The notes beneath the pieces are model-generated. The model made no database searches, had not been told where the DNA came from, and was given only the letters and a program-made list of their open reading frames with translations. Below, piece after piece: positions 2,671-41,499 of a DNA stretch of 45,339 bases. Origin of the DNA: a virus; the IMG/VR virus record IMGVR_UViG_3300006924_000048, positions 1 through 45,339 of that record. One strand, 5' to 3'. Every line of letters begins with the position of its first letter. Position 1 is the first letter of the stretch. The translations under genes were made by a program, and so were the position numbers.

Positions 2671-3114
2671 ATGACAAATTTCGAAAAGAGGTTCTTTAAA
2701 GTACTCAAAGAAAATGACGAAGATAAAGAAGCATTTGAACTTGAGCTTGATGATGATACATCTGCAGAAGATTTCGACGTTGATGTTGAGGCAGATGCAG
2801 ATGCAACTTTAGACATGAACGACCCTGCAGCGGCAGCAGCTCAAGCAACAGCTGAAGTGCATGCTCAGCAAGTTAACACTCTTAAAGGTTGGATTGCATC
2901 TGGTGATGAATTTCTTAAAATGTTAAATGACGCAGAAGATCCTAATTCTGTTCAAGCAGTTTTAGCTAATGCACAAGCGGATACGATATTTGATCGAATG
3001 AAACAATCAGAACAGCGTAAGATTGCTCGTGTCGCGACTGAGTTAGCTTCACTTAATGAATCGTTTAGAGGTTATCTCGCTCAAACAGATAACGCTCAGT
3101 TTAGAGGAGTCTAA
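2671..3114 (+). CDS. Small acidic late protein with capsid-targeting-like N-terminus
   Basis: This 147-aa protein starts MTNFEKRFFKVLKEND. The amphipathic N-terminal helix ending in L-K-E resembles the T4 capsid-targeting sequence cut by protease gp21 at (L/I)-x-E. A very acidic segment follows (residues about 20-50), then an Ala-rich helical body. The family is not recognised. A TAAATA box 5 nt before the ATG and a strong hairpin terminator downstream (3150-3181) make it a one-gene late transcript. It converges on the primase gene with a 4-nt overlap. A prohead or internal-head role is inferred, not shown. Confidence 0.65.
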   Translation: MTNFEKRFFKVLKENDEDKEAFELELDDDTSAEDFDVDVEADADATLDMNDPAAAAAQATAEVHAQQVNTLKGWIASGDEFLKMLNDAEDPNSVQAVLANAQADTIFDRMKQSEQRKIARVATELASLNESFRGYLAQTDNAQFRGV

Positions 3115-12991: not shown

Positions 12992-14917
12992 ATGAGCTCG
13001 TTCGATAACTTCTACACCAGGTTACAATCTTTAAATGAAGCAAGAAAATCTCCTGTGGAGGCTTTAGTTCCTGGTGCTACCGGTGTTACTAAGCAAATGC
13101 GATCAGCAGGGTTAAGTTCTGCACCATTAGACACCATAAGATTTATTAGAGAGTTATTATTTAACCTAGATGTTATTTCCGAAGAGGAGTTAAATGTTGT
13201 TAAGATGGGTAAAGGCTTTACCGGTAAAAAGCAAGCCATGCTTAAAGTACTACAAGATAACCAAGATGCAATTAATGCTAAATCAGATGAAATTTCACAG
13301 AAGATTGAAAGTACTTTAGATGATTTTATTTCAGGTATGGGTGCTAACCGCTCACGGGAAGAAAAATATGCTGCTCAAGCCGCTGCTCAAGAGTTAGCTG
13401 CTCAAGCACGTGCTGCTAAATCCGGGAAAGAGATGGATGACGCACTTGCTGATGTTATCTCTGATGAAAAGCTTATTATTAAAGCATCACTTGCTAAGGC
13501 TATTCAAGAATTGGAAGACCTTCCTGGAGGTGAAGATATTTCACCGGATGTTCTTAGTGAGATTAAGAAGTTTGCTCCAAAAATTAATACTATCGAGCAA
13601 CTCGAATCGTTTGTTAAGCAACTTAGTGCAATGGAAGAATATCAATTGCCAGCTGCTTACCTTTCCAGTACTGTTAAGGCAATCAAAGGTGGTATGGAGG
13701 ATATCGAAATGGAAGATCAAGAAGATCCAGATCATGGATTTGACGCTACAAAATCAGATCTTGATAAAGATGGTAAGATTTCCAAATATGAGCGTACGAG
13801 GGGTGAAGCAATTGCTTCTTCAATGAGTAAAGAAGATAATGAGAACTTGACTCAAACGCAATTAGACGCTGGTGATCGTCTTAGTGCTATGTATCGCAAA
13901 GATATGCTAGCTGATATTGATAAGATGCATAAATCTATGGTTGGTGATGGTACCGATCTAACTACTGGCACAAAGTTCAGTGATGCTGAAGTATCAGATC
14001 TTTATAAGCAGGCCGCTGAAAAGAATCTTTCTAAATATAACAGAATTAATAAGCAGAGCAACGGTAAACAGCAAGATAGAGTAGATGTAGCTCAGAGTAT
14101 TTTAGATAATGTTATCAAAACACAAGCAGATAACAAGCAACCACGCGCGGTTGAGAATGCAGAAGATCCTAATATTGAGGCATTGGCTCAGGTTGAAGTA
14201 GAAGAACTTGGTGATGGTGAATTACCTGATGATTACCATGAAGATGCTGAGCAAGAGATTAAGGTAGGGTCAATGCTTACAACTAACTACAATGAAGTGG
14301 TTCATGTTGACAAGATAGATACTGAATCTGATATGAAGGGTAGACCAATCTACTACTGTACAGATAAAGACGGTGGTGAGCATGTTCTTTATCCGGAAGA
14401 AGTCCTCGCTGTATCACCAGAAGATGGTGAAAATCCAGAATTCGAAGCTGCCTTAACAGCAGCGGATGACATTCATGGTGGAAATCCTGGCTCGGGTTAT
14501 GAAGAGTATAAGAAGATGATCGAGGCTAAACTTGGTCGTCCTTGTACACCTGATGAGTGTGACGATATCAAGATTAAGATAGATCACCATAGTTTCAAAG
14601 GTGAAGAAGCTGACATGAAACAAGTCGCCGAGAGTAAGTACACAACTGCTGACTACCTTACTGATATCTATTCATCAGTTGAGCCTATTGTGGAAAGCAC
14701 AGTCAACGAAAATGGTCAAACAACTCCTACTCGTCAATACCTTGTTGAAAGGTATGAAGAGGCCATTGAAGATGTCTACACATCACAATATCTAATTGAG
14801 CAAAAAGCTCAAGATTCTTTACCTAAACAAAAGAAGGAAAACAATCTTAGCTTTAAAGAGCGCTTCCAGCCTAAGACTAACTGGCAACTTGAAGAAGTTC
14901 GTCGCTACGGTCTTTAG
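12992..14917 (+). CDS. Large late protein with EF-hand loop and capsid-targeting-like N-terminus
   Basis: This 641-aa, acidic, largely helical protein starts MSSFDNFYTRLQSLNEARKS. The (L/I)-x-E site L-N-E followed by Ala matches the gp21 cleavage rule for T4 head-targeted proteins. An Ala-rich coiled-coil region spans residues about 90-180. A perfect EF-hand calcium loop lies at 256-267 (DLDKDGKISKYE). A small beta domain follows around 425-470 (KVGSMLTTNYNEVVHVDK). I do not recognise the family. The TAAATA promoter and plus-strand position argue for late expression. It ends 4 nt into the convergent QueC gene. Virion or internal-head localisation is inferred. Confidence 0.75.
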   Translation: MSSFDNFYTRLQSLNEARKSPVEALVPGATGVTKQMRSAGLSSAPLDTIRFIRELLFNLDVISEEELNVVKMGKGFTGKKQAMLKVLQDNQDAINAKSDEISQKIESTLDDFISGMGANRSREEKYAAQAAAQELAAQARAAKSGKEMDDALADVISDEKLIIKASLAKAIQELEDLPGGEDISPDVLSEIKKFAPKINTIEQLESFVKQLSAMEEYQLPAAYLSSTVKAIKGGMEDIEMEDQEDPDHGFDATKSDLDKDGKISKYERTRGEAIASSMSKEDNENLTQTQLDAGDRLSAMYRKDMLADIDKMHKSMVGDGTDLTTGTKFSDAEVSDLYKQAAEKNLSKYNRINKQSNGKQQDRVDVAQSILDNVIKTQADNKQPRAVENAEDPNIEALAQVEVEELGDGELPDDYHEDAEQEIKVGSMLTTNYNEVVHVDKIDTESDMKGRPIYYCTDKDGGEHVLYPEEVLAVSPEDGENPEFEAALTAADDIHGGNPGSGYEEYKKMIEAKLGRPCTPDECDDIKIKIDHHSFKGEEADMKQVAESKYTTADYLTDIYSSVEPIVESTVNENGQTTPTRQYLVERYEEAIEDVYTSQYLIEQKAQDSLPKQKKENNLSFKERFQPKTNWQLEEVRRYGL

Positions 14918-18654: not shown

Positions 18655-19899
18655 GTGTCAAAGCGAACCATATTTTTACATTTACCAGCCTATCGCGACC
18701 CAGAGTTAATACCAACTATTGAGGATGCTTTGAATATGGCGGAGTTTCCAGAAAGAATACATTTTGGTATTTGCCGGCAATATAATCCAGAGGATGGTTT
18801 TGATGATTTATCTAAATATAAGGATGATCCTAGATTTAAAATAGAGGAGATCCACTATACTAAAGCCAAAGGTCTACCTTACGCTCGGGCATTAATAAAT
18901 GATACTCTTCTTACTGATGAAGACTTTGTATGTCAATTAGATTCGCATCATAGATTTACAAAAAATTGGGACACTACCTTAATTAAATGGTATGATAAGT
19001 TAGTTGACGATGGTTATAATCCTGTTATAGGTGGATATTCACCACTGTATAATCCCTTTAATGATCCAGAGGAGAGAGTTCAAGAGCCATGGATGTCGCA
19101 TGCAGCATGCTTTTATCCTTTTGGAACTATCTTTATTAGACCTGGGGCTACACCCAACTGGCAAAATTTAACGAAACCATACCCCGCTCGTTTTTTAAGT
19201 GGTCATTTTGCTTTTGGTCCAAATAAATGGGCAAGAGATGTAAAACACGACCCTAACATATTTTTCGCGGGTGAAGAATTAAATTTAACTGTTAGAACTT
19301 ATACTCATGGTTATGATTTATTTCACCCACATAGAGTAGTTATATGGCATGCTACTATGAGAGAAGAACGAAGTGGGATGTTAGTGTGGGATGATCAATA
19401 TAAAAGAGGTGAGAATCAATTGAGTATTGGTAATGACCTAGCACGTTCTCGTATCAGGCAGTTACTTGAAGTCGATAATAGTGGTCATGATTTAGGAGAG
19501 TATAGCCTCGGCACTGTAAGAGAGTTGAGTGATTATGAAGCGTACGCTGGTATAAATTTTAAAAATAAATCTTTTCATCAAGAAACAATAGATAATTTAC
19601 CACCTACTACTCCTACCACTGATCAGTGGAAAAAGTCTTACTATCATTTAGTAAATATTACCCCTGAAATGTTGCCTGGTAAAGATTATAAAAGTATATT
19701 AGTAGCTTTCGATGATGAAACTGGTAGTGGTGTTCATCAAACGTATATTAGTGATGATAGACTTACCCAGTTTTTGGATACTAGTAGTCCGATTCACTAT
19801 GAAGAAATGTTTGTAACAAACAACCCACCTGTTCGGGTAGTATATTGGGGTATATCAAAAGAAACAGGCTGGGCCGAAAGAGTAGAATTTAATTTATAA
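18655..19899 (+). CDS. Skp1-type GlcNAc transferase (GT-A)
   Basis: The family hallmark LPAYRDPEL (residues 10-18) is followed by PTIEDALNMAEFPERIHFGIC and QLDSHHR (94-100). Then come FLSGHFAFGP and FAGEELNLTVRTYTHGYD. This is the order seen in the GlcNAc-transferase family that includes the eukaryotic Skp1 hydroxyproline GlcNAc transferase. DSHHR supplies the DxD-like metal site. The C-terminal 130 residues form an extra module. It starts at GTG. It is the first gene of a five-gene plus-strand cassette and has a paralogue at the other end (24949-26211). Confidence 0.85.
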   Translation: MSKRTIFLHLPAYRDPELIPTIEDALNMAEFPERIHFGICRQYNPEDGFDDLSKYKDDPRFKIEEIHYTKAKGLPYARALINDTLLTDEDFVCQLDSHHRFTKNWDTTLIKWYDKLVDDGYNPVIGGYSPLYNPFNDPEERVQEPWMSHAACFYPFGTIFIRPGATPNWQNLTKPYPARFLSGHFAFGPNKWARDVKHDPNIFFAGEELNLTVRTYTHGYDLFHPHRVVIWHATMREERSGMLVWDDQYKRGENQLSIGNDLARSRIRQLLEVDNSGHDLGEYSLGTVRELSDYEAYAGINFKNKSFHQETIDNLPPTTPTTDQWKKSYYHLVNITPEMLPGKDYKSILVAFDDETGSGVHQTYISDDRLTQFLDTSSPIHYEEMFVTNNPPVRVVYWGISKETGWAERVEFNL

Positions 19900-19918
19900 A
19901 ATAAAAACAACAATAGTT

Positions 19919-20905
19919 ATGAATAAAAAAAATAAGATAGTTATACCTATAGCCGGTGCCCCTGTAAGATATAGGCTTGAAATTATGAAGAAGGCTTTTC
20001 CTGATTTACTTGATTATATAATACTTTTTACAACTAAGACCTCTTATCCTATGTATAAAGATTATCATAATGATTTTAAATTCGTATTCATAGAAGATTA
20101 CCAAGATGAATTTAGTAAAAGTAGTGATGAATTTGAGCGATTTCCAGAGTTTGAAACAGAAGAAGAATACTTTAAAAAAATAGCAGGATTTAAAGGTGCT
20201 TTTTCTTTAGATATAAGTCGGTTTATTTTTCCTTACTTAATGGAAAATGATATCTATAATTTTATTATTACAGAAACTGATTTTATTTTTAAAAACGATA
20301 TAGAGATGTTAGAAAAAGTCTTTAATAGTGTACCAGAGGGCACACTATACGCCCCATGGATGGGAGACGATATATTTAGTAACAATCCTAAACTTTGGAC
20401 CAATATACAGCACCTCTTTCCAGATATTAAACTTGAATATGATGAACCAATAAGGATGTGTGATGGTTTCTTAAGAGGATTCCATTTTCGTAATAAAGAA
20501 GACATGTACCTTTTTTATAAAATATATTGCGAGGCTATGAAGGATGCTATTAAAGATGACAAAATTAATAAAATTGGTACTAAATTATATTATGTTGATT
20601 ATGTAGTGCACATACTTATGCAGATATTTAAAAAGCAAAAAAACTACAATTGGGAGACTTGCTATAAATTTACTTTAATCGGTGGTCAAAAAGTAGGTCA
20701 CCATGTATGTAGACCTGAAGATACATTTTACCATTCTAGAGTTTCTACTTGGGAAGAAAAGTATAAGCTAGACAGAAATAATGTTACTTCTATTGAAGAG
20801 TATATTAAAAAAAATAAAGAACAACTCGACTATTATTATAGAGACCATGGGTATGTAGTTGAGGCAACTGATACTCATATTTTTACTAGTTTACAAAATT
20901 ATTAA
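19919..20905 (+). CDS. Putative glycosyltransferase-like protein
   Basis: The start KIVIPIAGAPVRYRLEIMKK resembles a nucleotide-binding beta strand. FIITETDFIF in the middle could be a DxD-like segment. GTLYAPWMGDD and RMCDGFLRGFHF follow, as in enzymes that hold a sugar nucleotide. I cannot assign a known family. Its position between a GlcNAc transferase and a carbamoyltransferase supports a glycan role. There is no Shine-Dalgarno, and the gene lies 19 nt after its neighbour. Confidence 0.6.
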   Translation: MNKKNKIVIPIAGAPVRYRLEIMKKAFPDLLDYIILFTTKTSYPMYKDYHNDFKFVFIEDYQDEFSKSSDEFERFPEFETEEEYFKKIAGFKGAFSLDISRFIFPYLMENDIYNFIITETDFIFKNDIEMLEKVFNSVPEGTLYAPWMGDDIFSNNPKLWTNIQHLFPDIKLEYDEPIRMCDGFLRGFHFRNKEDMYLFYKIYCEAMKDAIKDDKINKIGTKLYYVDYVVHILMQIFKKQKNYNWETCYKFTLIGGQKVGHHVCRPEDTFYHSRVSTWEEKYKLDRNNVTSIEEYIKKNKEQLDYYYRDHGYVVEATDTHIFTSLQNY

Positions 20906-20916
20906 CTTTTTATATA

Positions 20917-22500
20917 ATGATGGCAAATATAGCTTTTTACGGCTCACATAACGCAGCAGTAGTTGTTGAAAAAGATAACAAAATTGTTACTGTTATTGAA
21001 ATAGAGCGTTTTTTATCACAAAAAAATATTGGCGTAGCTCAATATAGCCCTGCTTATAGTAGAAAAACTATAATACCAGCAATCATAAAATATATAGAGG
21101 CGGAGTTTGGTATAAAGGAATACAATAAGTGCTATTTCATAAATGCGGATAGTTGTGAAGGTCAGGGAGACAAAGTACATCTAATTCACCATGAAGCGTC
21201 AATCCCAGCAAAAGAATTTATAGAAGGTAAGCATCATTTATCACACGCCGCTTGTGGGTTTTATCAAAGTAATTATGATGAAGCACTGATTGTTTCATAT
21301 GATGGTGGTGGTAATGATGGATTTTTTAATATATATCATGCAAAAGATAGAAATAGTATAGAGAGTATATATAGTTCCGGTGAAGATTTAGGATTCCCTT
21401 ATATGTCTTTCGGTGAATATCTTGGAGATATACGAAAAGAGCCTCTTAATATAGGCAATCTTGTATATTCAGGTAAAATAATGGGATTGGCTTCCTATGG
21501 TAAGTTACAACCTGAGTGGTTGGATGCATTTGAAGAATATTATAGGGCTATACCTTGTGGGCCTACATATCAAGATCATTTAGAAACATTATCTGAAAAA
21601 ACTGGACTAACTTTTGATGTTAATAATAGATATACTGGACAAACAGGATGGGATATAGCTAAGACTTCGCAAATAGCTTTTGAGAACGTATTCATGAGCA
21701 TTGTTAAGCCGTTTCTTAAAAAGTATCCCAATATACCACTTGTGGTATCTGGTGGATGTGGTTTAAATATATTACTAAATACTATGCTCTACGAAACCTT
21801 GGATAGAGAAGTATTTGTACCCCCGAACCCAAATGATTGCGGAATTGCAACTGGATTAATACTTAATCATATTAAACCTAAAAAGGCTTATGATATAACA
21901 TATGCAGGTATTGAAATATTAGATAAAAATACTTTAATGTCTCATTACGAAGACTTGAGAGGTAAAAAATTAAATACAAAGACATTAGTTAAAGATTTAG
22001 TGGAAGGCAGTATTGTAGGGGTTGTAAGGGGTAAATGTGAGCACGGTCCAAGAGCTTTAGGTAATAGAAGTATATTGTGTAATCCAGCGTTTCCGGAAAT
22101 GAAAGATATCTTAAACTCAAAAGTTAAAAATAGAGAGTGGTATAGACCTTTTGCTCCTGTATGCCGCTTAGAGGATGTTAGTAAGTATTTTAATTTTGAA
22201 GGGGAAAGCCGTTGGATGGGATTTTGCCCAACTGTTAAAGATGAGTGGAAAGAGCAATTATCTTCTATAACTCATGTTGACGGTACAGCAAGAGTGCAAA
22301 CGGTCACTAAAAAACAGAATCCTTGGTTATATAATCTTTTAACTAAGTTTGAAAAAAAGACTGGTGTAGGAGTTCTCCTTAATACTTCATTTAACATAAA
22401 CGGCAAGCCTATCTTATCTACATACGCTGATGCGGTTAAGGTTTATAGGGAGACTCATATGGATAGACTTTTGTTAGAAGATTTATACTTTAAAAAATAA
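20917..22500 (+). CDS. O-carbamoyltransferase (NodU/CmcH/TobZ family)
   Basis: The enzyme uses carbamoyl phosphate and ATP to carbamoylate a hydroxyl, typically on a sugar. The N-terminal ASKHA-type Kae1-like domain has HHLSHAACG (106-114) and SYDGGGNDG (127-135). The C-terminal YrdC-like region has HGPRALGNRS (376-385) and WYRPFAPVC. The length of 527 aa is normal for the family. The start could be either of two adjacent ATGs. It sits between sugar-transfer genes with gaps of 11 and 5 nt, so it almost certainly modifies the same glycan. Confidence 0.92.
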   Translation: MMANIAFYGSHNAAVVVEKDNKIVTVIEIERFLSQKNIGVAQYSPAYSRKTIIPAIIKYIEAEFGIKEYNKCYFINADSCEGQGDKVHLIHHEASIPAKEFIEGKHHLSHAACGFYQSNYDEALIVSYDGGGNDGFFNIYHAKDRNSIESIYSSGEDLGFPYMSFGEYLGDIRKEPLNIGNLVYSGKIMGLASYGKLQPEWLDAFEEYYRAIPCGPTYQDHLETLSEKTGLTFDVNNRYTGQTGWDIAKTSQIAFENVFMSIVKPFLKKYPNIPLVVSGGCGLNILLNTMLYETLDREVFVPPNPNDCGIATGLILNHIKPKKAYDITYAGIEILDKNTLMSHYEDLRGKKLNTKTLVKDLVEGSIVGVVRGKCEHGPRALGNRSILCNPAFPEMKDILNSKVKNREWYRPFAPVCRLEDVSKYFNFEGESRWMGFCPTVKDEWKEQLSSITHVDGTARVQTVTKKQNPWLYNLLTKFEKKTGVGVLLNTSFNINGKPILSTYADAVKVYRETHMDRLLLEDLYFKK

Positions 22501-22505
22501 AATTA

Positions 22506-24914
22506 ATGAATACAAGTAAGGAAATTTTTAAAAATATATACGAAAATTTTGGCTTCGGTTCTACAGAATCTAGAAGTGGTCCGGGTAGTACAATATCGGA
22601 GACAGAGAAATTAATAGATAATATTAGAGCTATTATAAGACGCTTTAATATAGAGTCTGTTACTGACTTACCTTGCGGTGATTTGAATTGGATAAATTAT
22701 TTATTTCAAGATATTAAAAGTTATACAGGATGCGATATAGTAGAAGAATGTATAGAGGATAATCGAATTAAATATCCTGAGTATAATTTTAAATGTTTAG
22801 ATCTTGAAACTGATAATATTCCGGATGCTGATCTTTTAATTGTTAGAGATGTTTTAGGGCATCAACCTTTAGAAGTAGCGTTAAATATGATTAGGAATAT
22901 TTTAAATTCAAATTGTAAATATTTACTATCAACAACTTGGGCATCTAAAAAGGAAGGTGTATGGGCTGTTCCGGAAGAAGGGACTATTCATAGAGAAAAT
23001 GAAGGTGTTGAGTATGGTCGGTTTTATCCTGTAAATTTAATGGGTGCTCCTTTTAACTTTCCGGAACCTGAGCTTTTTATAGAAGAGCAAGTTCAAGTAG
23101 ATGGTTATGATAGAGGTAATAGAAAAAGCCTATCCTTATGGGATATTAAAAAAATAAAAGATTATGTTCTAGCCAACTTAGTAGATATAAAAGATATTTC
23201 TGAAGACCCCTTAAATGAAACTGACAATAAACAAACAATTGTTACTGGTTTATGGAATATTAATCGTACCGGGCGAGATTTTGACCACTATATAGAATCG
23301 TTTAGACAGCTCTTAGAGATACCTCAAAATTTATTTATTTATATTCCTAAAGAATATGAATATATAGTATGGGAACATCGTGAACAAAAAAACACATTTG
23401 TTAAAGTTTTTGAGCTAGAAGATCTTAAGACTTTATACTTACCGTTCTGGGATCGCACACAACAAGTTAGGAATGCTGACAGTTGGATTGGTCAAGCTGC
23501 ATGGTTAAAAGATTCACCGCAAGCTACTAATGAGTGGTATAATCCTATTGTACAGTCTAAAATGTTTATGCTTAATGATGTAACTATCATTAATCCCTTT
23601 GATACAGAATATTTTTATTGGTTGGACGCAGGTATAACTAATACTGTACCTCAAAGCCATTTAACATATTATAATTTATTAGACAAACTACCAGAATTTA
23701 GCAATCCATTTTTGTTTTTAAGTTACCCGTATACCTTTGATGTTTGTGAGATACATGGATTTGAATACGAAAAAATGTGCGAATATTCAAATGCTAAAGT
23801 CGAGTACGTCTGCAGAGGTGGATTATTTGGTGGTCACAAACATCAGGTAAATAAAGCTAATGCTTCATATTATAGTTTATTAGATCGATCTTTAAGTGAG
23901 GGGTTAATGGGCACAGAAGAAAGTCTGTTTACTATAATGTCATATTTAGAGCCAGAGGTGTATCGACGATATGAATTAAATATAAATGGCCATATAATGC
24001 TTTTTACTCAAGCTTTACTTGATGATAATGTAGAGTTAGCAGAACCCGCATTTGTACGCTTACCAAATGCTAAAGAATATACGGATCGTGATGTAAGTAC
24101 TATAAAGACTCATTTATATATGCTTACGTTTAACTTTCCAGAGCAAGTTCTTCATACAATTGAATCTATGAAAAAAACTCCAGAGTGGTTAGATAAGCCC
24201 AGTTTATTTTTATTAGATAATTCTACGGATGAGGATGCTAAAATTCGTAATCAAGAAATAGCAAAAGAATATAATTTTGAATATATTGATTTAGGCGGCA
24301 ACACCGGTATATGTGGTGGTAGACAATCAGCAGCTGAGCATTTTCACGATTCAGATGCTGATTTTATGTTCTTTTTCGAGGATGATATGACAGTTAACCC
24401 TCCGGAATTAGAAGGTCAATTTTGTAGAAATGGGTTTCGTAAATATATTCCTAATATTTATAATTTAGCTCATCGAATTATGCTTAAAGACGAGTTTGAT
24501 TTTCTTAAATTAAGTTTTACAGAAGTTTATTTTGATAATGATAAGCAATGCTCATGGTATAATGTACCTCAAACAGTAAGGAGCAAATTCTGGCCAGATT
24601 ATGATCAATTACCAGTTTCAGGTTTAGACCCTAATGTGCCTAAAACTAACTTTAATAATATTTACAATTTAGACGAATTGACTTATATAGACGGTGAAAT
24701 TTATTACGCTAACTGGCCTATGATTGTAAGTAAAGAAGGTAATCGGAAAATGTTTATTGATACTAAATGGGCTAGCCCATTTGAGCAAACGTGGATGTCT
24801 CATATATATCAACAAACCAAAGCAGGTGAGTTAAAACCTGCAATACTACTAGCGTCTCCAATATGGCATGATCGTATTATGCATTACCAACCGGATGAGC
24901 GTCGTGAAAACTAA
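22506..24914 (+). CDS. Trimodular methyltransferase / HtrL-type GT / GT2 fusion
   Basis: This 802-aa protein has three parts. Residues about 1-230 are a class I SAM-dependent methyltransferase (TDLPCGDLNW at 53-62 as motif I, later LLIVRDVLGHQ). Residues about 243-500 resemble the HtrL/YibB glycosyltransferase family (IVTGLWNINRTGR, later FYWLDAGITN). Residues about 540-800 are a GT2-like domain (MLTFNFPEQVLHTIESM, LGGNTGICGGR, then FFFEDDM as the DxD site). The fusion would extend and methylate one glycan. The exact activities are inferred from motifs. Confidence 0.78.
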   Translation: MNTSKEIFKNIYENFGFGSTESRSGPGSTISETEKLIDNIRAIIRRFNIESVTDLPCGDLNWINYLFQDIKSYTGCDIVEECIEDNRIKYPEYNFKCLDLETDNIPDADLLIVRDVLGHQPLEVALNMIRNILNSNCKYLLSTTWASKKEGVWAVPEEGTIHRENEGVEYGRFYPVNLMGAPFNFPEPELFIEEQVQVDGYDRGNRKSLSLWDIKKIKDYVLANLVDIKDISEDPLNETDNKQTIVTGLWNINRTGRDFDHYIESFRQLLEIPQNLFIYIPKEYEYIVWEHREQKNTFVKVFELEDLKTLYLPFWDRTQQVRNADSWIGQAAWLKDSPQATNEWYNPIVQSKMFMLNDVTIINPFDTEYFYWLDAGITNTVPQSHLTYYNLLDKLPEFSNPFLFLSYPYTFDVCEIHGFEYEKMCEYSNAKVEYVCRGGLFGGHKHQVNKANASYYSLLDRSLSEGLMGTEESLFTIMSYLEPEVYRRYELNINGHIMLFTQALLDDNVELAEPAFVRLPNAKEYTDRDVSTIKTHLYMLTFNFPEQVLHTIESMKKTPEWLDKPSLFLLDNSTDEDAKIRNQEIAKEYNFEYIDLGGNTGICGGRQSAAEHFHDSDADFMFFFEDDMTVNPPELEGQFCRNGFRKYIPNIYNLAHRIMLKDEFDFLKLSFTEVYFDNDKQCSWYNVPQTVRSKFWPDYDQLPVSGLDPNVPKTNFNNIYNLDELTYIDGEIYYANWPMIVSKEGNRKMFIDTKWASPFEQTWMSHIYQQTKAGELKPAILLASPIWHDRIMHYQPDERREN

Positions 24915-24948
24915 CTTGTAATTTTTAATACCTTTATTAAGTATATTT

Positions 24949-26211
24949 ATGAAGAATGCTTATACAAATGGTTCTGTGTTTGTTCAAATAGCGGCATATC
25001 GAGATAAAGAGTTATTACCTACATTAAAAGATTTACTCTCTAAAGCCGATAAACCAAACTTATTACACATTTGTATTTGCTGGCAACATTCACAAGATGA
25101 CGAGTGGGACAATTTAGATGAATATATTGATGATTCTAGGTTTACTATACTCGATATAGATTATAATGATTCAAAAGGAGCATGTTGGGCTAGAAATCTT
25201 ATTCAGCAACATTATAACGAGGAAAAGTTTACATTTCAAATAGACTCGCATCATCGGTTTGTAAAAAGTTGGGATACAAAACTTAAAAATATGTATGCAG
25301 GGTTGCAACTTAATGGCTCTCCAAAACCATTAATTACTAGCTATTTACCTGCTTATGATGTTGAAACGAGTAAGCCTATTAATTTGGATCCTTGGATGTT
25401 ATCATATAACTTCTTTGCAAAAGAGGGCCCCTTGCATACTATACCGGAAGAAATACCTAATTGGAAAGGATTGGGAGGTCCAATTAAGGGACGGTTTTAT
25501 TCTGCACACTTTGCATTTACAGATGGTGCATTTAGTAAAAATGTTCAACATGACCCAGAAATGTATTTTCATGGAGAAGAAATAAGTATTGCCGTTAGAG
25601 CATTTACACATGGTTATGATATATACTACCCACATCAATTAATAGCATGGCACCACTACGGTAGAAAAGCTGCTACTAAACACTGGGATGATAGTAATAC
25701 ATGGCAAGATGATAATAAAAAATCTTATCAGCGAGTAAGAAAATTATTAGGTATTAATAATGAGAAATTTACAAAAGAAGAGAATAAATACGGCTTAGGT
25801 AAATCACGCACTTTAAATGACTATGAAAAATATGCAGGTGTAAGATTTAGAGATCAGAAAATTCAACACTATACACAAGATAGATTATACCCTCCCAATC
25901 CAGAATATGTTAGCAAGCAAGAGTATGACGATTCATTTATAAGCTTGTTTAAATATTGCATAGACCTAAGCTACGATCAAGTACCTTACGATGATTATAT
26001 TTTTTGGGCGGTCGCGTTCTTTAACACTGAGGGAAAAGAAATATTTAGACAAGATGTAGATCCAGAAGAGATCAAAAAGCTTAAATCAGATCCGGATGGT
26101 TACTGCAAGCTCTGGAGGTGGTTTGAAACAGATGAGGATATTGCTAAGTGGCGGGTATGGCCACAAAGCAAAGAGCATGGATTTGGTGATCCAATAGAAG
26201 GTAACATTTAA
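24949..26211 (+). CDS. Skp1-type GlcNAc transferase, second copy
   Basis: This is a paralogue of the 18655 gene with the same motif order: IAAYRDKEL (14-22), QIDSHHR (97-103), RFYSAHFAFTDG, and MYFHGEEISIAVRAFTHGYD. The N-terminal 300 residues align by eye, while the C-terminal modules differ. Two related transferases bracketing the cassette suggest sequential additions or different acceptors. The stop overlaps the convergent gene. A short hairpin with T-run at 26226-26245 may end the transcript. Confidence 0.85.
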   Translation: MKNAYTNGSVFVQIAAYRDKELLPTLKDLLSKADKPNLLHICICWQHSQDDEWDNLDEYIDDSRFTILDIDYNDSKGACWARNLIQQHYNEEKFTFQIDSHHRFVKSWDTKLKNMYAGLQLNGSPKPLITSYLPAYDVETSKPINLDPWMLSYNFFAKEGPLHTIPEEIPNWKGLGGPIKGRFYSAHFAFTDGAFSKNVQHDPEMYFHGEEISIAVRAFTHGYDIYYPHQLIAWHHYGRKAATKHWDDSNTWQDDNKKSYQRVRKLLGINNEKFTKEENKYGLGKSRTLNDYEKYAGVRFRDQKIQHYTQDRLYPPNPEYVSKQEYDDSFISLFKYCIDLSYDQVPYDDYIFWAVAFFNTEGKEIFRQDVDPEEIKKLKSDPDGYCKLWRWFETDEDIAKWRVWPQSKEHGFGDPIEGNI

Positions 26212-35505: not shown

Positions 35506-35533
35506 AGATTAAATAACTATATGGAAAAATCAA
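35506..35533 (-). promoter_or_regulatory. Early-type promoter of uvsY-uvsW
   Basis: TTGATT (35533-35528), 16 nt, TAATCT (35511-35506), 6 nt, GTG 35499. The -35 box lies inside the first codons of the opposite late gene. Confidence 0.5.
35510..35515 (+). promoter_or_regulatory. TAAATA late-type promoter
   Basis: TAAATA, 5 nt before ATG 35521. It overlaps the -10 box of the divergent uvsY promoter by 2 bp. Confidence 0.5.
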
Positions 35534-35895
35534 CTGGTAAATTTGCTCGTTACTTTAAACGCATATTACAAGAGGATATATCCGCCGGAGATGCTGGTGT
35601 TGGTAGTGGAGCTGGTGGGTTTTCCTCTACCAATATTAACTCTGGTGATTTTTATGCTCCAGGTGATGCAAGAGTACCTAAAGCTATAGGTAAAAAGACT
35701 GCTACAAGGAAAGGCTCTGTGGGTAATGTTAATAAAAAGGATAAAAAGAAAAAAAATATAGATAAATTATTCTTAAAAGGAGAAAATGCAGAAGAAAAAA
35801 TGTGTCCTGATGCTTGCTGTGGCATGCCAGTAAGTAAATGTAAATGCGGACCTGACTGCCCTCACTGTAATTGCCACGAACTTAATAATGCTTGA
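35521..35895 (+). CDS. Late protein with capsid-targeting-like start and Cys-rich tail
   Basis: It starts MEKSTGKFARYFKRILQEDISAG. The basic amphipathic helix ending in L-Q-E fits the gp21-type (L/I)-x-E cleavage rule. A Gly/Ser-rich disordered region and a Lys-rich stretch follow. The last 30 residues are cysteine-rich: CPDACCGMPVSKCKC, then CPHCNCH, nine cysteines in all plus a histidine, suggesting a compact zinc or iron-sulfur site. The family is not recognised. It is the first gene of the ten-gene plus-strand block. Confidence 0.65.
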   Translation: MEKSTGKFARYFKRILQEDISAGDAGVGSGAGGFSSTNINSGDFYAPGDARVPKAIGKKTATRKGSVGNVNKKDKKKKNIDKLFLKGENAEEKMCPDACCGMPVSKCKCGPDCPHCNCHELNNA

Positions 35896-36316
35896 TTTGG
35901 GACACTGGACTTGCAAAGAGTCATTAACTGAGTTACCGTTTGGGTTTGTTTATATCATTACAAACCTTTCAAACGGTATGAAGTATATCGGTAAAAAACA
36001 AATAGTTAAGAAAACTAGAAGACCTCCACTTAAAGGTAAAAAACGTAAAAGAATTATAGTTGGAGAGTCAGATTGGAAGACATATACTGGCTCATCTGAT
36101 AGATTAAATGCGGATATCGAAAAACTTGGCAAGAATAAATTTAAATTTGAAATAATTCGTAGTTGCGGTACTAAAAGTGAGTTAGCTTACATGGAAACCT
36201 TTTATCAATTCCAGTCAGAAGCATTATTACGTGAGGATTACTATAATGGTATTCTAAATGTGCGTATAGGTAAGGTAAAATTTACTAGAACACCACCAAA
36301 ACTATTGCTATCATAA
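35888..36316 (+). CDS. GIY-YIG-type nuclease
   Basis: The catalytic motif reads GFVYIITNLSNGMKYIG with GFVY at residues 19-22 and YIG at 33-35. K/R-rich and W63-KTYTGSS segments come next. The likely metal-binding Glu is E103 in ELAYMETFYQ. The pattern is that of small phage GIY-YIG proteins (VYKITNLxNGKxYIGKK type). It might be a free-standing endonuclease rather than an intron-homing enzyme, since no intron is visible. It overlaps the preceding gene by 8 nt. Confidence 0.8.
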   Translation: MLDLGHWTCKESLTELPFGFVYIITNLSNGMKYIGKKQIVKKTRRPPLKGKKRKRIIVGESDWKTYTGSSDRLNADIEKLGKNKFKFEIIRSCGTKSELAYMETFYQFQSEALLREDYYNGILNVRIGKVKFTRTPPKLLLS

Positions 36317-36822: not shown

Positions 36823-37248
36823 ATGAGTAAGTTTCTTGATCTTATTGAAGAGAACACCCCAGATCTAAATTTAGATGAAAAAATTGCTGCTAAAAGGGCT
36901 GTTCAGCGTTGCTTAATGGAGAAAGATATTAAATGTGATGCAGATCAGAAATCAGATGACGTAATGATTCATTTACCAGATGGTCGTATTGTAAAATTAG
37001 AGGTTAAAGAGTTTGTTGAGGTAGAGGATGCTGAAACCATGAAACCTGAATTAACTCAGCAGGGTGATAAGGCCGCTGAGCTAGCTTTAGCTATGGGAGC
37101 AGCTACAGATGTAGTAGGTAAGGTTGACCCTAAAGCTGGTATGTTTGCGCGTGATGGTGCAAAAAAACTTGCAAAGGTTACAAACCAAGTTTATCTTCAA
37201 GTAGCCAATGATTTAAAAAAATCTCTTAAAGCAATTAAAAAAGGTTAA
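36823..37248 (+). CDS. Small late protein with capsid-targeting-like start
   Basis: It starts MSKFLDLIEENTPDLN, where I-E-E fits the (L/I)-x-E rule. A short beta unit (DVMIHLPDGRIVKLEVKEF) is followed by an Ala/Lys-rich helical half (DKAAELALAMGAATDVVG). The C-terminus is basic (DLKKSLKAIKKG). The family is not recognised. An internal DNA-associated head protein would fit its small size, basic tail and late-type promoter, but this is inferred. Confidence 0.6.
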   Translation: MSKFLDLIEENTPDLNLDEKIAAKRAVQRCLMEKDIKCDADQKSDDVMIHLPDGRIVKLEVKEFVEVEDAETMKPELTQQGDKAAELALAMGAATDVVGKVDPKAGMFARDGAKKLAKVTNQVYLQVANDLKKSLKAIKKG

Positions 37249-37253
37249 TTAAT

Positions 37254-37565
37254 ATGAAAACTTTAAATATATTTAAAAAGTACGAAGCTATTTATAATGA
37301 AGCTGATGAGCCAGAGATGGAAGCTGACGCTACAGATGTTGCCGAACAACCACCAGCTCCGGAGCCAGTTTCTGCAGAAGGTAAAATATTCCTAGCTGAT
37401 CTTATTCTTAAAGCATTTTTACACGAGCCTGATGCTAGTGCTGCTCAAACAGCTGTTGATTTGCAAACAAAAGTTGATGAGGATCCTAACAACGTTATTA
37501 GTACTATTGCAAGCATCGTACAAATTGGTGCAGAAGATTTAAAAGATACGCTTGAACAAGCATAA
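37254..37565 (+). CDS. Small acidic protein
   Basis: It starts MKTLNIFKKYEAIYNEADEPE. The beginning MKT plus aromatic/basic helix resembles head-targeting sequences of T4 internal proteins, although the P3 residue before the Glu is Tyr and not Leu/Ile. An acidic, Pro-rich linker leads to a helical domain (FLADLILKAFLHEPDASAAQTAVDL). The family is not recognised. It lies 5 nt after its neighbour. Translation probably depends on the upstream gene. Confidence 0.6.
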   Translation: MKTLNIFKKYEAIYNEADEPEMEADATDVAEQPPAPEPVSAEGKIFLADLILKAFLHEPDASAAQTAVDLQTKVDEDPNNVISTIASIVQIGAEDLKDTLEQA

Positions 37566-37587: not shown

Positions 37588-38640
37588 ATGCAATTAGAAG
37601 ATATATATACTAAAAAAATACTCACAAGTGAAGAGTACCATAGCCCTCGTAAAAGGCTTGAACATCTTTATGAAGATGTAACCTTATATATAAAAGATGG
37701 TGAAAAATATAGCCCTGTAGGAGATGTTCCAGAAGATATTTACCGTAAAGTTCAAAGAATTGCATCAGGTAAAAATACTTCTGGAATGATTACAACTTAT
37801 CTTAATGATAAATTCTATTCTCAGGATTCATTTAAGGGTGAAGATGATTTTGAAACTCTTGTTAGCTTGCTTGATGATGGTGAGTTTGAAACTTACATTG
37901 AATCCGATAATAAGCCAACATTAGCTGATAATAGAGTTAACAATATTATTAATTTAGCCTCTAAAAACGGTATGAGTGAGAAGCTAGCAAAGAAAGTTGC
38001 TAGGTTTACACCAGTTGATAAAGGTGGTAGTAATGTTGGTCCGGGTGAAGTTCTTCTTGCTCTTACCTTTTCTGATGTAACTAACGCTGTTGGTGGTGGT
38101 GATTTATCTATTAGTGGTGAAGCTCTAGAAGTAAAAGGTCAAGGTGGTCGATTAGGCCAACAAGCTGGTAGGGGAGGTATTAAATTTGATACCGATGCTC
38201 TTACTTCTAATTTAAGTAACCCTCCTGAGATTCAAGCGGTTTCATTAGAAGGAATTATACACCAACTTTATAAAGCTTATCAAGCGGAAGGTAAAGAGAG
38301 TTCGTTCGTTAATGACCTTAAACAAGGCTTAAAATCTGCTTATCCATATAGCAGTATGGAATATCTAGAAGGAGTTAATTATGATAGTGTGAGTACAAAA
38401 CAGGGCATTAAAGTTGTCCGTGGTGATATTCGCAAAGCTATAACAAAAGTTAATTTAGATAACTATGCGCGTAAATATAATTATGAAGATTTTATTTTTA
38501 TCGATAAGACAAAGCTAAACTACGCTATGTTTAAGCGTGAAGAGGCACTTCGTAATGGTGGATTAATTGATGATGAAAAACTTGTCACTTCAAACTACTC
38601 AATTAATGACTTCTACCCTAATTTCAAGTTTAATTTCTAA
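37588..38640 (+). CDS. PD-(D/E)XK-type nuclease candidate
   Basis: The key region is VGPGEVLLALTF, then GGGDLSISGEALEVKGQ. This gives the acidic residues E154, D172 and E181-x-K183, spaced as in PD-(D/E)XK nucleases, followed by a Gly-rich GGRLG loop. The enzyme would cut DNA, but no relative is certain. A TTG at 37552 would add 12 residues and overlap the previous gene. ATG 37588, with AAGG just upstream, is preferred and gives 350 aa. It lies among proteins with head-targeting-like starts, though its own start does not clearly match. Confidence 0.7.
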   Translation: MQLEDIYTKKILTSEEYHSPRKRLEHLYEDVTLYIKDGEKYSPVGDVPEDIYRKVQRIASGKNTSGMITTYLNDKFYSQDSFKGEDDFETLVSLLDDGEFETYIESDNKPTLADNRVNNIINLASKNGMSEKLAKKVARFTPVDKGGSNVGPGEVLLALTFSDVTNAVGGGDLSISGEALEVKGQGGRLGQQAGRGGIKFDTDALTSNLSNPPEIQAVSLEGIIHQLYKAYQAEGKESSFVNDLKQGLKSAYPYSSMEYLEGVNYDSVSTKQGIKVVRGDIRKAITKVNLDNYARKYNYEDFIFIDKTKLNYAMFKREEALRNGGLIDDEKLVTSNYSINDFYPNFKFNF

Positions 38641-38664: not shown

Positions 38665-39882
38665 ATGCGTAGTTTTAAACAATTTCATCTAAATTCACAG
38701 CTTTTAACTGAGGCTAAAGCTAATACTCACTTAACTCACTTAGAAGAACTGGTGTTAACTAAGGGAGAGAAGGGATATGATGTGGCTCGTACCATGATTA
38801 GCAATCTTCTCTCTAAATTACAGGGTAAATCCAAAAGAAGCGTCAATACTTCAGTGAAATGGGATGGAGCTCCTGCTATTTTTGCTGGAAAGCACCCAGA
38901 AACCGGTAAATTCTTTGTTGGTACTAAGTCTATCTTTAATAATGAGCCTAAAATCAACTATACAGATGCTGATGTTGAGATGAATCATGGTCATGCACCT
39001 GGACTTGCTGATAAACTTAAGAAAGCTCTTAAATATCTTCCAAAATTAGGTATTAAAGGCATTTTACAAGGTGATTTCATGTTTGATTCATCAATGCTTG
39101 AGACAGTAATGCAGGATGGTGTTAAACATATCGCATTTAAACCTAATACTATTAAGTATGCCGTCGAAGCAGACTCAGATCTTGGTAAAGAAATTGCAAA
39201 TTCTGTGTTTGGTATTGTTTTTCATACCGGTTATAGTGATTTAAACTCACCACCTCAATATGGTATCAATGTAAAAGGTCTTAATAAAGTACCAGGTGTA
39301 TGGGTTGATGATGCTGTATTTACTGATGCCACAGGAACAGTTACTCTTACAAAGGACGAGGCTAAGCAAGTTAGAGATTTAGCAAAGACTGCTGATGGTA
39401 TCAAAGTTAAATACAAAGATCTTCCATTAGACTTACTTAACATTTATGCTAACTCAGAGATTCGTGAAGGAAAATTTTTAGAAGATGCAGAGGGTTCATA
39501 TAAAGGCTTTATGAACTGGATGAAGGGACGAATGGAAAAAGAGATTGCTAAGCGCAAATCTAAAACCGGTAAAGAGCGCATTACAGAAGCATTTAAAAAG
39601 AAACTAGCTGATATTAAGTCGCGTCAAAAAGATATTATAAATTTATTTAAAATAAGTAAACTCCTATCCCAAGCTAAACAAATTTTTGTTAACAAATACA
39701 ATAATGCCGTTTACAATACAAAGCACTTTTTAGATAATGGTGACGGTACTCTTACTGCTTCTAACCCAGAAGGTTATGTTGCTGTAGGTAAAGAGGGTGA
39801 TGCAGTAAAACTAGTTGATCGTTTAGAGTTTAGTAGAGCTAACTTTAGTGGAGGTCAAACATCTACCCCAATTACCAAATGA
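38665..39882 (+). CDS. Ligase-like nucleotidyltransferase with capsid-targeting-like start
   Basis: It starts MRSFKQFHLNSQLLTEAKAN, with L-T-E followed by Ala as in T4 internal proteins. Motif I of the DNA/RNA ligase superfamily is visible as K65-W-D-G68 inside SVKWDGAPAIFAG, where the Lys would be adenylylated. GTKS follows at 86-89, then GILQGDFMF near 132-140 as a motif III candidate, and HIAFKPNTIKYAV. The C-terminal third is Lys-rich. The motif order supports a nucleotidyltransferase core, but ligase activity and substrate are unproven. Its stop overlaps the next ATG (ATGA). Confidence 0.7.
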   Translation: MRSFKQFHLNSQLLTEAKANTHLTHLEELVLTKGEKGYDVARTMISNLLSKLQGKSKRSVNTSVKWDGAPAIFAGKHPETGKFFVGTKSIFNNEPKINYTDADVEMNHGHAPGLADKLKKALKYLPKLGIKGILQGDFMFDSSMLETVMQDGVKHIAFKPNTIKYAVEADSDLGKEIANSVFGIVFHTGYSDLNSPPQYGINVKGLNKVPGVWVDDAVFTDATGTVTLTKDEAKQVRDLAKTADGIKVKYKDLPLDLLNIYANSEIREGKFLEDAEGSYKGFMNWMKGRMEKEIAKRKSKTGKERITEAFKKKLADIKSRQKDIINLFKISKLLSQAKQIFVNKYNNAVYNTKHFLDNGDGTLTASNPEGYVAVGKEGDAVKLVDRLEFSRANFSGGQTSTPITK

Positions 39883-40430
39883 AAACGTTTAGAGAGTTTT
39901 ATGAAGACGGAGAGCACCTAAGAGACAAAGAGAGAATAGCTCTTATGCCCGGTGGTTATAAGCCACCTACAAAAGGTCACTTCTCTGCATTTTTATATCT
40001 TTTAGAAAATGCTGATAAAGGTATTGTTGTAATTGGTAACAAGGACCGAGATGGTATTACAGCGGAGCAATCAAAAGCTATTTGGGATATCTATGCAAAA
40101 TATTCTAATAAGCCTGTTGAAGTTATGCTAGCGCCTATATCTCCTGTTAAATCAGTTTATGATTATGCTGATGAAAATAAAGAGGTTGAAATTATTGTTG
40201 GTGCAGGTGATAAAGACGAGGATGTGAAACGTTATTCATACTTTGAAAAGAATGCTGATAAGTACCCTCTTGTAAGTGTTACGAAGATTCCTCTACAAGC
40301 AGAAGGTATTTCAGGTACTAAGACAAGAGAGTTAATTACTAATAACTTAGATGAGGCAATTGCTTACTTTGTACCAGAAGAGGTATCTGAAACGGATAAA
40401 GATGCTATAAAATCTATCCTGACGGCATAA
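39879..40430 (+). CDS. Cytidylyltransferase/NMNAT-like nucleotidyltransferase
   Basis: It starts MKTFREFYEDGE, very like MKTYQEF of T4 internal proteins. The fold signature is LMPGGYKPPTKGHFSAF with the (H/T)xGH motif at T31-K-G-H34, and ISGTKTR at 144-150 as the ISxTxxR motif. These are hallmarks of the HxGH adenylyl/cytidylyltransferase superfamily (NMNAT, CoaD, TagD). The substrate is unknown. NAD-related adenylylation is one possibility. It is coupled to the ligase-like gene by a 4-nt overlap, and ligase-type enzymes may use NAD or ATP. Confidence 0.8.
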   Translation: MKTFREFYEDGEHLRDKERIALMPGGYKPPTKGHFSAFLYLLENADKGIVVIGNKDRDGITAEQSKAIWDIYAKYSNKPVEVMLAPISPVKSVYDYADENKEVEIIVGAGDKDEDVKRYSYFEKNADKYPLVSVTKIPLQAEGISGTKTRELITNNLDEAIAYFVPEEVSETDKDAIKSILTA

Positions 40431-40438: not shown

Positions 40439-41035
40439 ATGAAGTCTAAACTTAATGATGCAAGTTTAATTGCTGAAGCTTATTCACAAATTTCACACGA
40501 AGATCCAATTGAAGAAGGAATTGGTGCAATTGCTGGAGGTATTGGTAAGTTAGCCAAAAGTGGTCTTAAAGCAGTTGGTAAGGAGGCTGCTATAGTTGCA
40601 GGTGAGGTGGGTAAAGAAGGTCTAAAAGTTGCCGGCAAGGCTGCAATGGGCGCTGGTAAAGCTGCTATAAAAGGTTTAGATAAAGCTGGTCAAGCTGCTG
40701 ATAGAGGTATTAGTAAACTTGCTGGTGATGAAGAGCTAGAAGATGGTGAAAATATACCTCATGTAAATCACCATGATGATTCTGAAATGAAAATGGCTCT
40801 TGCTGAGCTTTACAAGATTGAAAAATATGCAGGTGCTCTTAGTCTTATGATGAAAGAGCTCCCAGCTTTAGAAGGATGGACAGCTTCTAAAATTACCAAA
40901 GCAGCAGACTATCTTGGTTCTGTTTTTCACAAACTAGATTATGATTTTGCAAGTGGTGAGCATGCTTCAATGTTTAATGCAGGTCATGAAGATGTTAATG
41001 CCTGCGGTTGTGGTGCAGAAGATGGTGAATGCTAA
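40439..41035 (+). CDS. Gly/Ala/Lys-rich amphipathic late protein
   Basis: It starts MKSKLNDASLIAEAYSQ. The L-I-A-E-A piece is the same as the cleavage region IAEA of T4 internal proteins. Residues about 28-95 are a repetitive Gly/Ala/Lys amphipathic region with glycine-zipper character (GIGAIAGGIGKLAKSGLKAVG), which could insert in membranes. A helical domain follows, and the end is CGCGAEDGEC. The family is not recognised. A role in DNA condensation or in crossing the host membrane after injection is speculation. Confidence 0.65.
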   Translation: MKSKLNDASLIAEAYSQISHEDPIEEGIGAIAGGIGKLAKSGLKAVGKEAAIVAGEVGKEGLKVAGKAAMGAGKAAIKGLDKAGQAADRGISKLAGDEELEDGENIPHVNHHDDSEMKMALAELYKIEKYAGALSLMMKELPALEGWTASKITKAADYLGSVFHKLDYDFASGEHASMFNAGHEDVNACGCGAEDGEC

Positions 41036-41052: not shown

Positions 41053-41499
41053 ATGAAAACATTTTTGCAATATATACAAGAAAAGTCCGTTTTAGGGCTT
41101 ATTGAATTTTTCGATATTCAAGGTATCGGTAAAGTACCCGCTAAATTAGATTCTGGTAACGGTGCTTACAATGTTTTGCATGGGGAAGATATTCAAGAGC
41201 AGGGTGATAAAGTTTTCTTCCGAACTATAAATGGTAAAACACTGCTACTTCCAAAGAAGGGTGAAATAACAATTAACGTTGGTGCAGGTAATATGGAACA
41301 TAGACCTGTAGTTGAATTGGATTTTAAAATTGGTGAAAAAGAATTTACAGGTATTCCATTCTCAATTGGCAATAGAGCATCTAATTTATATAAGATACTA
41401 GTTGGTAAAGACTTTATTCAACAAGATCTAGATGCTTTAATAGATGTAAGTAAAGAAAACATTGCTGACGAAAATATAGAAGTCAGCATAGACGATTAA
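41053..41499 (+). CDS. Retropepsin-like protease (RimB/'Zn_protease' family) with capsid-targeting-like start
   Basis: It starts MKTFLQYIQEKSVLG, with I-Q-E fitting the head-targeting rule. The body then follows the family previously called ATP-dependent zinc proteases: GLIEFFDIQGIGKVPAKLDSGNGAYNVLH carries the aspartic-protease D33-S-G triad. HRPVVELDFKIG and FSIGNRASNLYKILVGKDFI make up the second half. One DSG per chain implies a dimeric enzyme as in retropepsins. The substrate is unknown. It ends 2 nt before the convergent tRNA-Thr gene. Confidence 0.72.
   Translation: MKTFLQYIQEKSVLGLIEFFDIQGIGKVPAKLDSGNGAYNVLHGEDIQEQGDKVFFRTINGKTLLLPKKGEITINVGAGNMEHRPVVELDFKIGEKEFTGIPFSIGNRASNLYKILVGKDFIQQDLDALIDVSKENIADENIEVSIDD

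Follow-up and report, generated by a model that had tools for sequence, protein, structure and literature searches.

A DUF6267 ligase-like protein and a TxGH nucleotidyltransferase as a proposed capsid-cargo module of marine T4-like phages

A marine T4-like phage carries two overlapping genes, one for a ligase-like DUF6267 protein and one for a TxGH nucleotidyltransferase, and both proteins begin with leaders resembling those that load proteins into the T4 head. With moderate confidence, we propose that in marine T4-like phages the pair forms a module of capsid cargo, injected to process and seal broken nucleic acid. The genes were analysed in a viral record of 45,339 bases (IMGVR_UViG_3300006924_000048; its whole length is referred to as the window), in which T4-like replication genes are present. 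The folds, the invariant catalytic residues, the coupling and fusion of the genes and the leaders were computed here; the coordinates of the features are given in Table 1.

Table 1. Positions in the window of the two genes, their motifs and leaders, and neighbouring genes (a slash marks the expected cut)
Feature	Position	Strand	Basis
Small acidic protein, leader MKTLNIFKKYEAIYNE, possible cargo or core protein	37254..37565	+	Conserved position and leader in relatives
Gene A, hypervariable PD-(D/E)xK-like protein, upstream (possible TTG start at 37552)	37588..38640	+	Invariant residues
DUF6267 protein, polynucleotide-ligase-like covalent nucleotidyltransferase	38665..39882	+	PF19782, model, ligase structural matches
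Predicted capsid-targeting leader of DUF6267, MRSFKQFHLNSQLLTE, expected cut before A17	38665..38712	+	Leader statistics, disorder
Motif I, K65-W-D-G68, predicted adenylylated lysine K65	38857..38868	+	K65, D67, G68 invariant, 97 homologues
Motif III-like, Q135-G-D137	39067..39075	+	D137 invariant, 97 homologues
Motif IV, E369-G370	39769..39774	+	E369, G370 invariant, 97 homologues
Motif V lysine, K382	39808..39810	+	Invariant, 97 homologues
ATGA stop/start overlap of both genes	39879..39882	+	Sequence
TxGH nucleotidyltransferase, CoaD/NadM superfamily	39879..40430	+	phrog_395, PDB profile matches, model
Predicted capsid-targeting leader of transferase, MKTFREFYED	39879..39908	+	Start conserved in close relatives
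Nucleotide-binding motif, GGYKPPTKGH	39951..39980	+	G25, P29, G33, H34 invariant, 51 homologues
Second motif, ISGTKTR	40308..40328	+	R150 invariant, S145 nearly so
Ala/Gly/Lys-rich protein, leader MKSKLNDASLIAE/A, possible internal protein	40439..41035	+	Sequence; leader conserved in relatives
Retropepsin-like protein, strict T4-type leader MKTFLQYIQE/K	41053..41499	+	Strict pattern match

The first protein (405 residues, ATG start) matched the Pfam family PF19782 (DUF6267) with an E-value of 1.3e-93 and 314.8 bits against a curated cut-off of 27, in an alignment of nearly full length that placed residues 20-395 on positions 1-373 of the 376 in the profile. The protein is also a member of phrog_455, and DUF6267 is a Pfam family with no assigned function. 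By tblastn, DUF6267 was present in at least 455 phage records, the majority of them from cyanophages, with pelagiphage, methylophage and Stenotrophomonas phage among the further carriers. It was the sole family above its Pfam cut-off: weak matches to Mlp and HAD fell under theirs and were discarded, the RNA ligase family PF09414 gave no match, and the absence of a PF01653 match led us to reject an NAD-dependent ligase. The KWDG motif was located at K65-G68, where the first-pass annotation had placed it. We take K65/D67/G68, D137, E369/G370 and K382, compared across the window protein and 96 homologues of less than 85% identity, to be ligase motifs I, III, IV and V, which occur in order. In the same 97 sequences an N-terminal HxxHxE (H22, H25, E27), K88 and H187 were likewise invariant.

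Because sequence and profile searches of the PDB with DUF6267 found no ligase, comparison of folds was needed. In an AlphaFold model built from 96 sequences (pLDDT 88.1, pTM 0.84), residues 8-20 were disordered. Foldseek alone returned no significant PDB match for this model, which counts against a sealing activity, and its weak rows included RNA ligases, DNA ligases and mRNA capping enzymes. With a second structural aligner all 50 entries listed were polynucleotide ligases, RNA ligases coming first; the best match was the Naegleria RNA ligase (Z 9.3, 182 residues, 3.7 Å), and T4 Rnl1, Rnl2 and DNA ligase I scored Z values of 7.7, 7.6 and 6.6, a small margin of RNA over DNA ligases. The top match in a viral library was a 591-residue S-PM2 protein whose annotation includes a cytidyltransferase domain, and beyond the DUF6267 family RNA ligases ranked next (E 0.02-0.15). 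A Z of 9 is modest by itself; it is the uniform list of ligases together with the invariant motifs that makes the superfamily assignment firm, and from its modelled fold and its motifs DUF6267 almost certainly belongs to the polynucleotide ligase superfamily, as the first-pass annotation had supposed.

Given this fold, the sealing of polynucleotides by DUF6267 appears rather likely and, if it does seal, RNA would be a somewhat better candidate than DNA. The ranking of structural matches points to RNA, as do the kinase and phosphatase neighbours, which accompany RNA ligases in jumbo phages. Ligase-type chemistry could instead adenylylate or cap a target that is not a break, for example a protein or a small molecule, and the capping enzymes among the Foldseek rows and the additional invariant residues, to which no role is assigned, would fit such an activity; we consider it very unlikely, as the structural matches listed by the second aligner were all polynucleotide ligases and the nuclease, kinase and phosphatase neighbours indicate nucleic-acid ends.

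The second protein (183 residues, ATG start) matched phrog_395, named 'cytidyltransferase' (E 8e-7), and its family profile retrieved the NMNAT MJ0541 (1.4e-5) and CoaD (3.3e-5) from the PDB. Its model (pLDDT 93.6, pTM 0.87) showed the nucleotidyltransferase fold, with CoaD (Z 15.2) and NadM-type NMNAT (Z 14.2) fitting about equally well over approximately 146-155 residues; the two were tied, their fold scores being within or at the tie margin and their profile E-values close. Together, the modelled fold and the motifs leave little doubt that this enzyme is a member of the HIGH nucleotidyltransferase superfamily (CoaD/NadM). It had been described as an HxGH-type nucleotidyltransferase: the fold and the intact catalytic residues bore this out, but the motif did not, since it reads GGYKPPTKGH and is therefore TxGH, as in CoaD, rather than strict HxGH. 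HxGH was found instead in a few relatives. Neither predicted fold lacked the nucleotidyltransferase core, and the catalytic residues were unmutated across homologues, so that the two findings by which the first-pass annotation would have been refuted did not occur.

The transferases paired with DUF6267 fell into at least three motif classes, one of them with a NadM/NadR-like GRFQP motif. Large relatives with extra parts (L165, 9020-11566; L154, 7958-10699; L004, 7158-9881) carried metalloprotease-like HE..H motifs and a PNK/zeta-like kinase; in L165 a single transferase was fused to both a metalloprotease-like part and a zeta/PNK-like kinase, and the L004 relative had a Pol-beta-like N-terminal part. 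The identity of the transferase bears on the suggestion that it is an NMN adenylyltransferase which replenishes NAD where defences deplete it, the ligase being unrelated or an NAD-fed partner. Such a role is possible but not favoured, and we regard it as improbable: the NadM-type fold fit, the MJ0541 profile match, the GRFQP class and an immuto phage relative annotated as NadR speak for it, whereas CoaD fitted equally or slightly better, the same ligase is paired with differing transferase classes, and no other NAD gene was seen next to the pair. The protein at 35888-36316, called 'NAD synthetase' in PHROG (phrog_447), was rejected as a gene of NAD metabolism because of its GIY-YIG-like sequence FVYIITNLSNGMKYIGKK and its homing-endonuclease matches, from which the PHROG name is probably wrong.

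The 4-nt ATGA overlap of the two genes was confirmed from the sequence. Overlaps of this kind are frequent in phages and are weak proof when taken alone. We therefore turn to the arrangement in relatives, where the two genes overlapped by 4 nt or 1 nt, were separated by an inserted gene or were fused. Among 99 DUF6267 lineages of less than 80% identity, 83 had enough downstream sequence, and in 60 of these (approximately 72%) a transferase was fused to DUF6267 or followed it on the same strand at a distance of at most 4 kb; this count is a lower bound because the profile or the distance limit missed some transferases (L154, L203). Fusions existed in both orders, five with DUF6267 first and four with the transferase first, and annotated cyanophages, including Syn9, showed T4-GC71 followed by T4-GC190, which is the same order. 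This repeated coupling suggests that DUF6267 and the transferase probably act together. Thus the coupling proposed by the first-pass annotation was upheld, but its view of the pairing as unusual was not, since marine T4-like phages keep the two genes together as a conserved module.

Incorporation of IPIII into the T4 head requires no more than its first 10 residues; residues 4 and 7 matter for targeting and residues 8 and 10 for processing, D at position 10 prevents processing but not targeting, and the protease gp21 cleaves after L/I-x-E (PMC9026906). The starts in the window read MRSFKQFHLNSQLLTE/A for DUF6267 and MKTFREFYE/D for the transferase, a loose form in which F4 and F7 are present and E stands at position 16 or 9, so that the strict IPIII pattern (M..[FY]..[FY][IL].E) is unmatched. 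At the same loci the strict pattern was carried by 36 of 126 DUF6267 genes (29%) against 8 of 739 more distant genes (1.1%), counts that take related genes as independent; several of those eight were the retropepsin-like cargo gene. At the start codon of nonredundant DUF6267 proteins it was found in 37 of 147 and the loose form in most, and an (L/I/F)xE site lay at most 14 residues before the conserved domain in 125 of the 147. Examples of strict-type starts, taken from distant phages, are MINFSKYITE/D (Melnitz, TTG start), MMKFTQFLAE/S (DLP_6) and MLDFKNFITE/Q (C48C1), with MYSFKQYLNE/A and MQSFKQYLSE/S being further starts of T4 type. When ATG starts were scanned in the whole Melnitz-2 genome, where a prohead serine protease is annotated, gene A (MQGFKTFLSE/A) was the sole strict match; DUF6267 of its sister phage Melnitz-3 matched with a TTG start. 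All close relatives of the window transferase began with M..F..[FY], and the transferases of S-SM1 and Syn9 with MKKFSAFLNE/A and MKKFSAFLSE/A.

The head-targeting-like starts that the first-pass annotation had noticed were thus present on both proteins and, for the DUF6267 family, far over background. From these patterns the DUF6267 family is very likely head-targeted, and the same is likely for the two proteins of the window. In support of this idea, mass spectrometry of purified S-SM1 virions has revealed T4-GC190, which corresponds to the transferase in cyanophages (PMC3037559). The leader was absent from DUF6267 of P-HM2, S-SM1 and Syn9 and from the P-HM2 transferase, which counts against a cargo role. 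In the fusions, (L/I)xE sites occurred in similar places between domains, following the transferase and preceding a small domain; LTE/A precedes DUF6267, and LIAE/D or IIAE/D lies between DUF6267 and the transferase in L086 and L087. The fusions therefore resemble a polyprotein that the prohead protease would process, with some of the sites expected by chance. Leader-like starts such as MSSFDNFYTRLQSLNEA, MTNFEKRFFKVLKEN, MSKFLDLIEEN and similar ones were also seen at 12992-14917, 2671-3114, 35521-35895 and 36823-37248, and the genes there may encode additional proteins of the head core or cargo.

The distribution of leaders also bears on a rival explanation, in which DUF6267 is an ordinary replication or repair ligase of the infected cell that replaces T4 gp30, its packaging being incidental or limited to some lineages. 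Seven of the eight reference phages gave no PF01068, PF09414 or PF01653 match (PF09414 was absent from all eight genomes searched), some DUF6267 proteins lack the leader, and in cyanophages the gene is near replication genes. Against this, most DUF6267 members have the leader, DLP_6 carries DUF6267 alongside a conventional ligase, and RNA ligases are closer in fold than DNA ligases, if by a small margin; we judge this explanation unlikely. Because those seven phages lack another recognised ligase, DNA nick repair keeps its place as a possible task of the packaged enzyme that we favour.

Genes around the pair suggest what such cargo may include. Gene A had G171, D172, E181, K183 and Y293 invariant and E154 nearly so among 23 relatives of 18-25% identity, and E154, D172, E181 and K183 match the residues expected of a PD-(D/E)xK site; a Pfam search gave no nuclease match. 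A scan with the single sequence recovered close relatives only, and an iterative profile run on upstream genes recovered 41. Where DUF6267 was 92-100% identical, gene A was swapped among three classes with 19-33% identity between classes; for instance, L008 and L013 (compare L021) have DUF6267 proteins that are 100% identical and gene A proteins of approximately 24% identity in which D172 and E181-x-K183 are kept. Other phages had different sequences at this position, with D...(S/E)xK-like signatures by eye and several strict leaders. The features of gene A would fit a PD-(D/E)xK signature amid fast divergence or cassette exchange. In some relatives the leader-bearing neighbour was a zeta/PNK-like kinase (Zeta_toxin, E 6.5e-9; phrog_505 polynucleotide kinase, 2e-6), an adenylate kinase (PF00406, E 1e-38) or a HAD protein (phrog_415 polynucleotide kinase, 1e-5). 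The kinase, the phosphatase and the adenylate kinase were found at a minority of DUF6267 loci, which counts against a repair kit, and not beside the pair of the window. The retropepsin-like gene, whose product has a weak match to Zn_protease PF05618 under the cut-off, adjoins the pair in many relatives too. Elsewhere in the window, a cluster at 18655-26211 contains glycosyltransferase, Nol-like carbamoyltransferase and methyltransferase genes whose products may modify DNA or a surface, and an ORF at 339-1658 is of low complexity with repeated VTPSVS units.

Since the leaders resemble those of T4 head loading, both enzymes may enter the host with the viral DNA. That head-borne enzymes process and seal nucleic-acid ends is, in our view, the reading that needs the fewest assumptions. 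What we infer for the phage of the window comprises packaging, injection, the sealing reaction with its substrate and the target of the transferase. By analogy with T4 IPIII, the leaders would bring DUF6267 and the transferase into the core of the prohead, whose protease would remove the leaders after (L/I/F)xE, and at the next infection the mature enzymes would leave the head together with the DNA. In the new host, DUF6267 would self-adenylylate at K65 using ATP and seal polynucleotide ends, the likelier substrate being RNA cut by host defence nucleases and the second nicked incoming DNA, and the TxGH enzyme would use an NTP to nucleotidylate a phosphate-bearing acceptor for the same task. 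To our knowledge, a transferase of this kind has no known role in end sealing, which counts against a repair function. In some relatives the kit would be extended with the PNK-like kinase, the HAD phosphatase, the adenylate kinase and the variable PD-(D/E)xK-like nuclease. More tentatively, and with doubt prevailing, the capsid might hold a break-and-mend kit made of a fast-diverging PD-(D/E)xK nuclease, an invariant ligase and a nucleotidyltransferase, in some phages as a polyprotein cut by the prohead protease; once injected, the nuclease would attack host or rival nucleic acid and the ligase set would repair that of the phage.

Known systems resemble the module in part. T4 IPI-III and Alt, whose propeptides are cut by gp21, share the leader (F/Y at 4 and 7, a hydrophobic residue at 8, E at 10) and the cleavage after L/I-x-E, and T4 cargo is injected with the DNA (PMC9026906); here, in contrast, the cargo would be a ligase-like enzyme and a nucleotidyltransferase, and in some relatives the proteins are fused and contain cleavage-like sites internally. 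The Naegleria RNA ligase, T4 Rnl1 and Rnl2 have the same nucleotidyltransferase core and motif order, but DUF6267 is at 12-15% identity to them, was missed by sequence search and has a helical insertion before motif IV and the N-terminal HxxHxE. CoaD and NadM adenylyltransferases share the whole fold and both motifs with the window transferase, from which they differ in that the phage family has a leader and approximately 16-19% identity. RNA-repair systems of jumbo phages comprise a ligase, a PNK, a phosphoesterase and a Pol-beta NTase (PMC7824862) and are alike in that the ligase is accompanied by a kinase, a phosphatase and an NTase; the DUF6267 module differs in being apparently virion-loaded, in its HIGH-type rather than Pol-beta NTase, and in that kinase and phosphatase are limited to some relatives. 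The cyanophage T4-GC71/T4-GC190 pair (S-SM1, Syn9, P-HM2) consists of the same two families in the same order, but its transferase is longer and of a GRFNPPTxGH class and its DUF6267 is without a leader.

The literature searched contained no mention of DUF6267 and, on capsid-targeted, ejected nucleases of marine T4-like phages or cyanophages, yielded the T4 review only. The main new point of this work is delivery, that is, the head-targeting leaders on most DUF6267 proteins. If our proposal is true, a family present in hundreds of phage records would gain a function, and the 'cytidyltransferase' of cyanophage virions would be accounted for. Furthermore, the concept of T4 internal proteins, which covers small inhibitors and Alt, would then also take in a kit for nucleic-acid repair that reaches the host just as infection begins.
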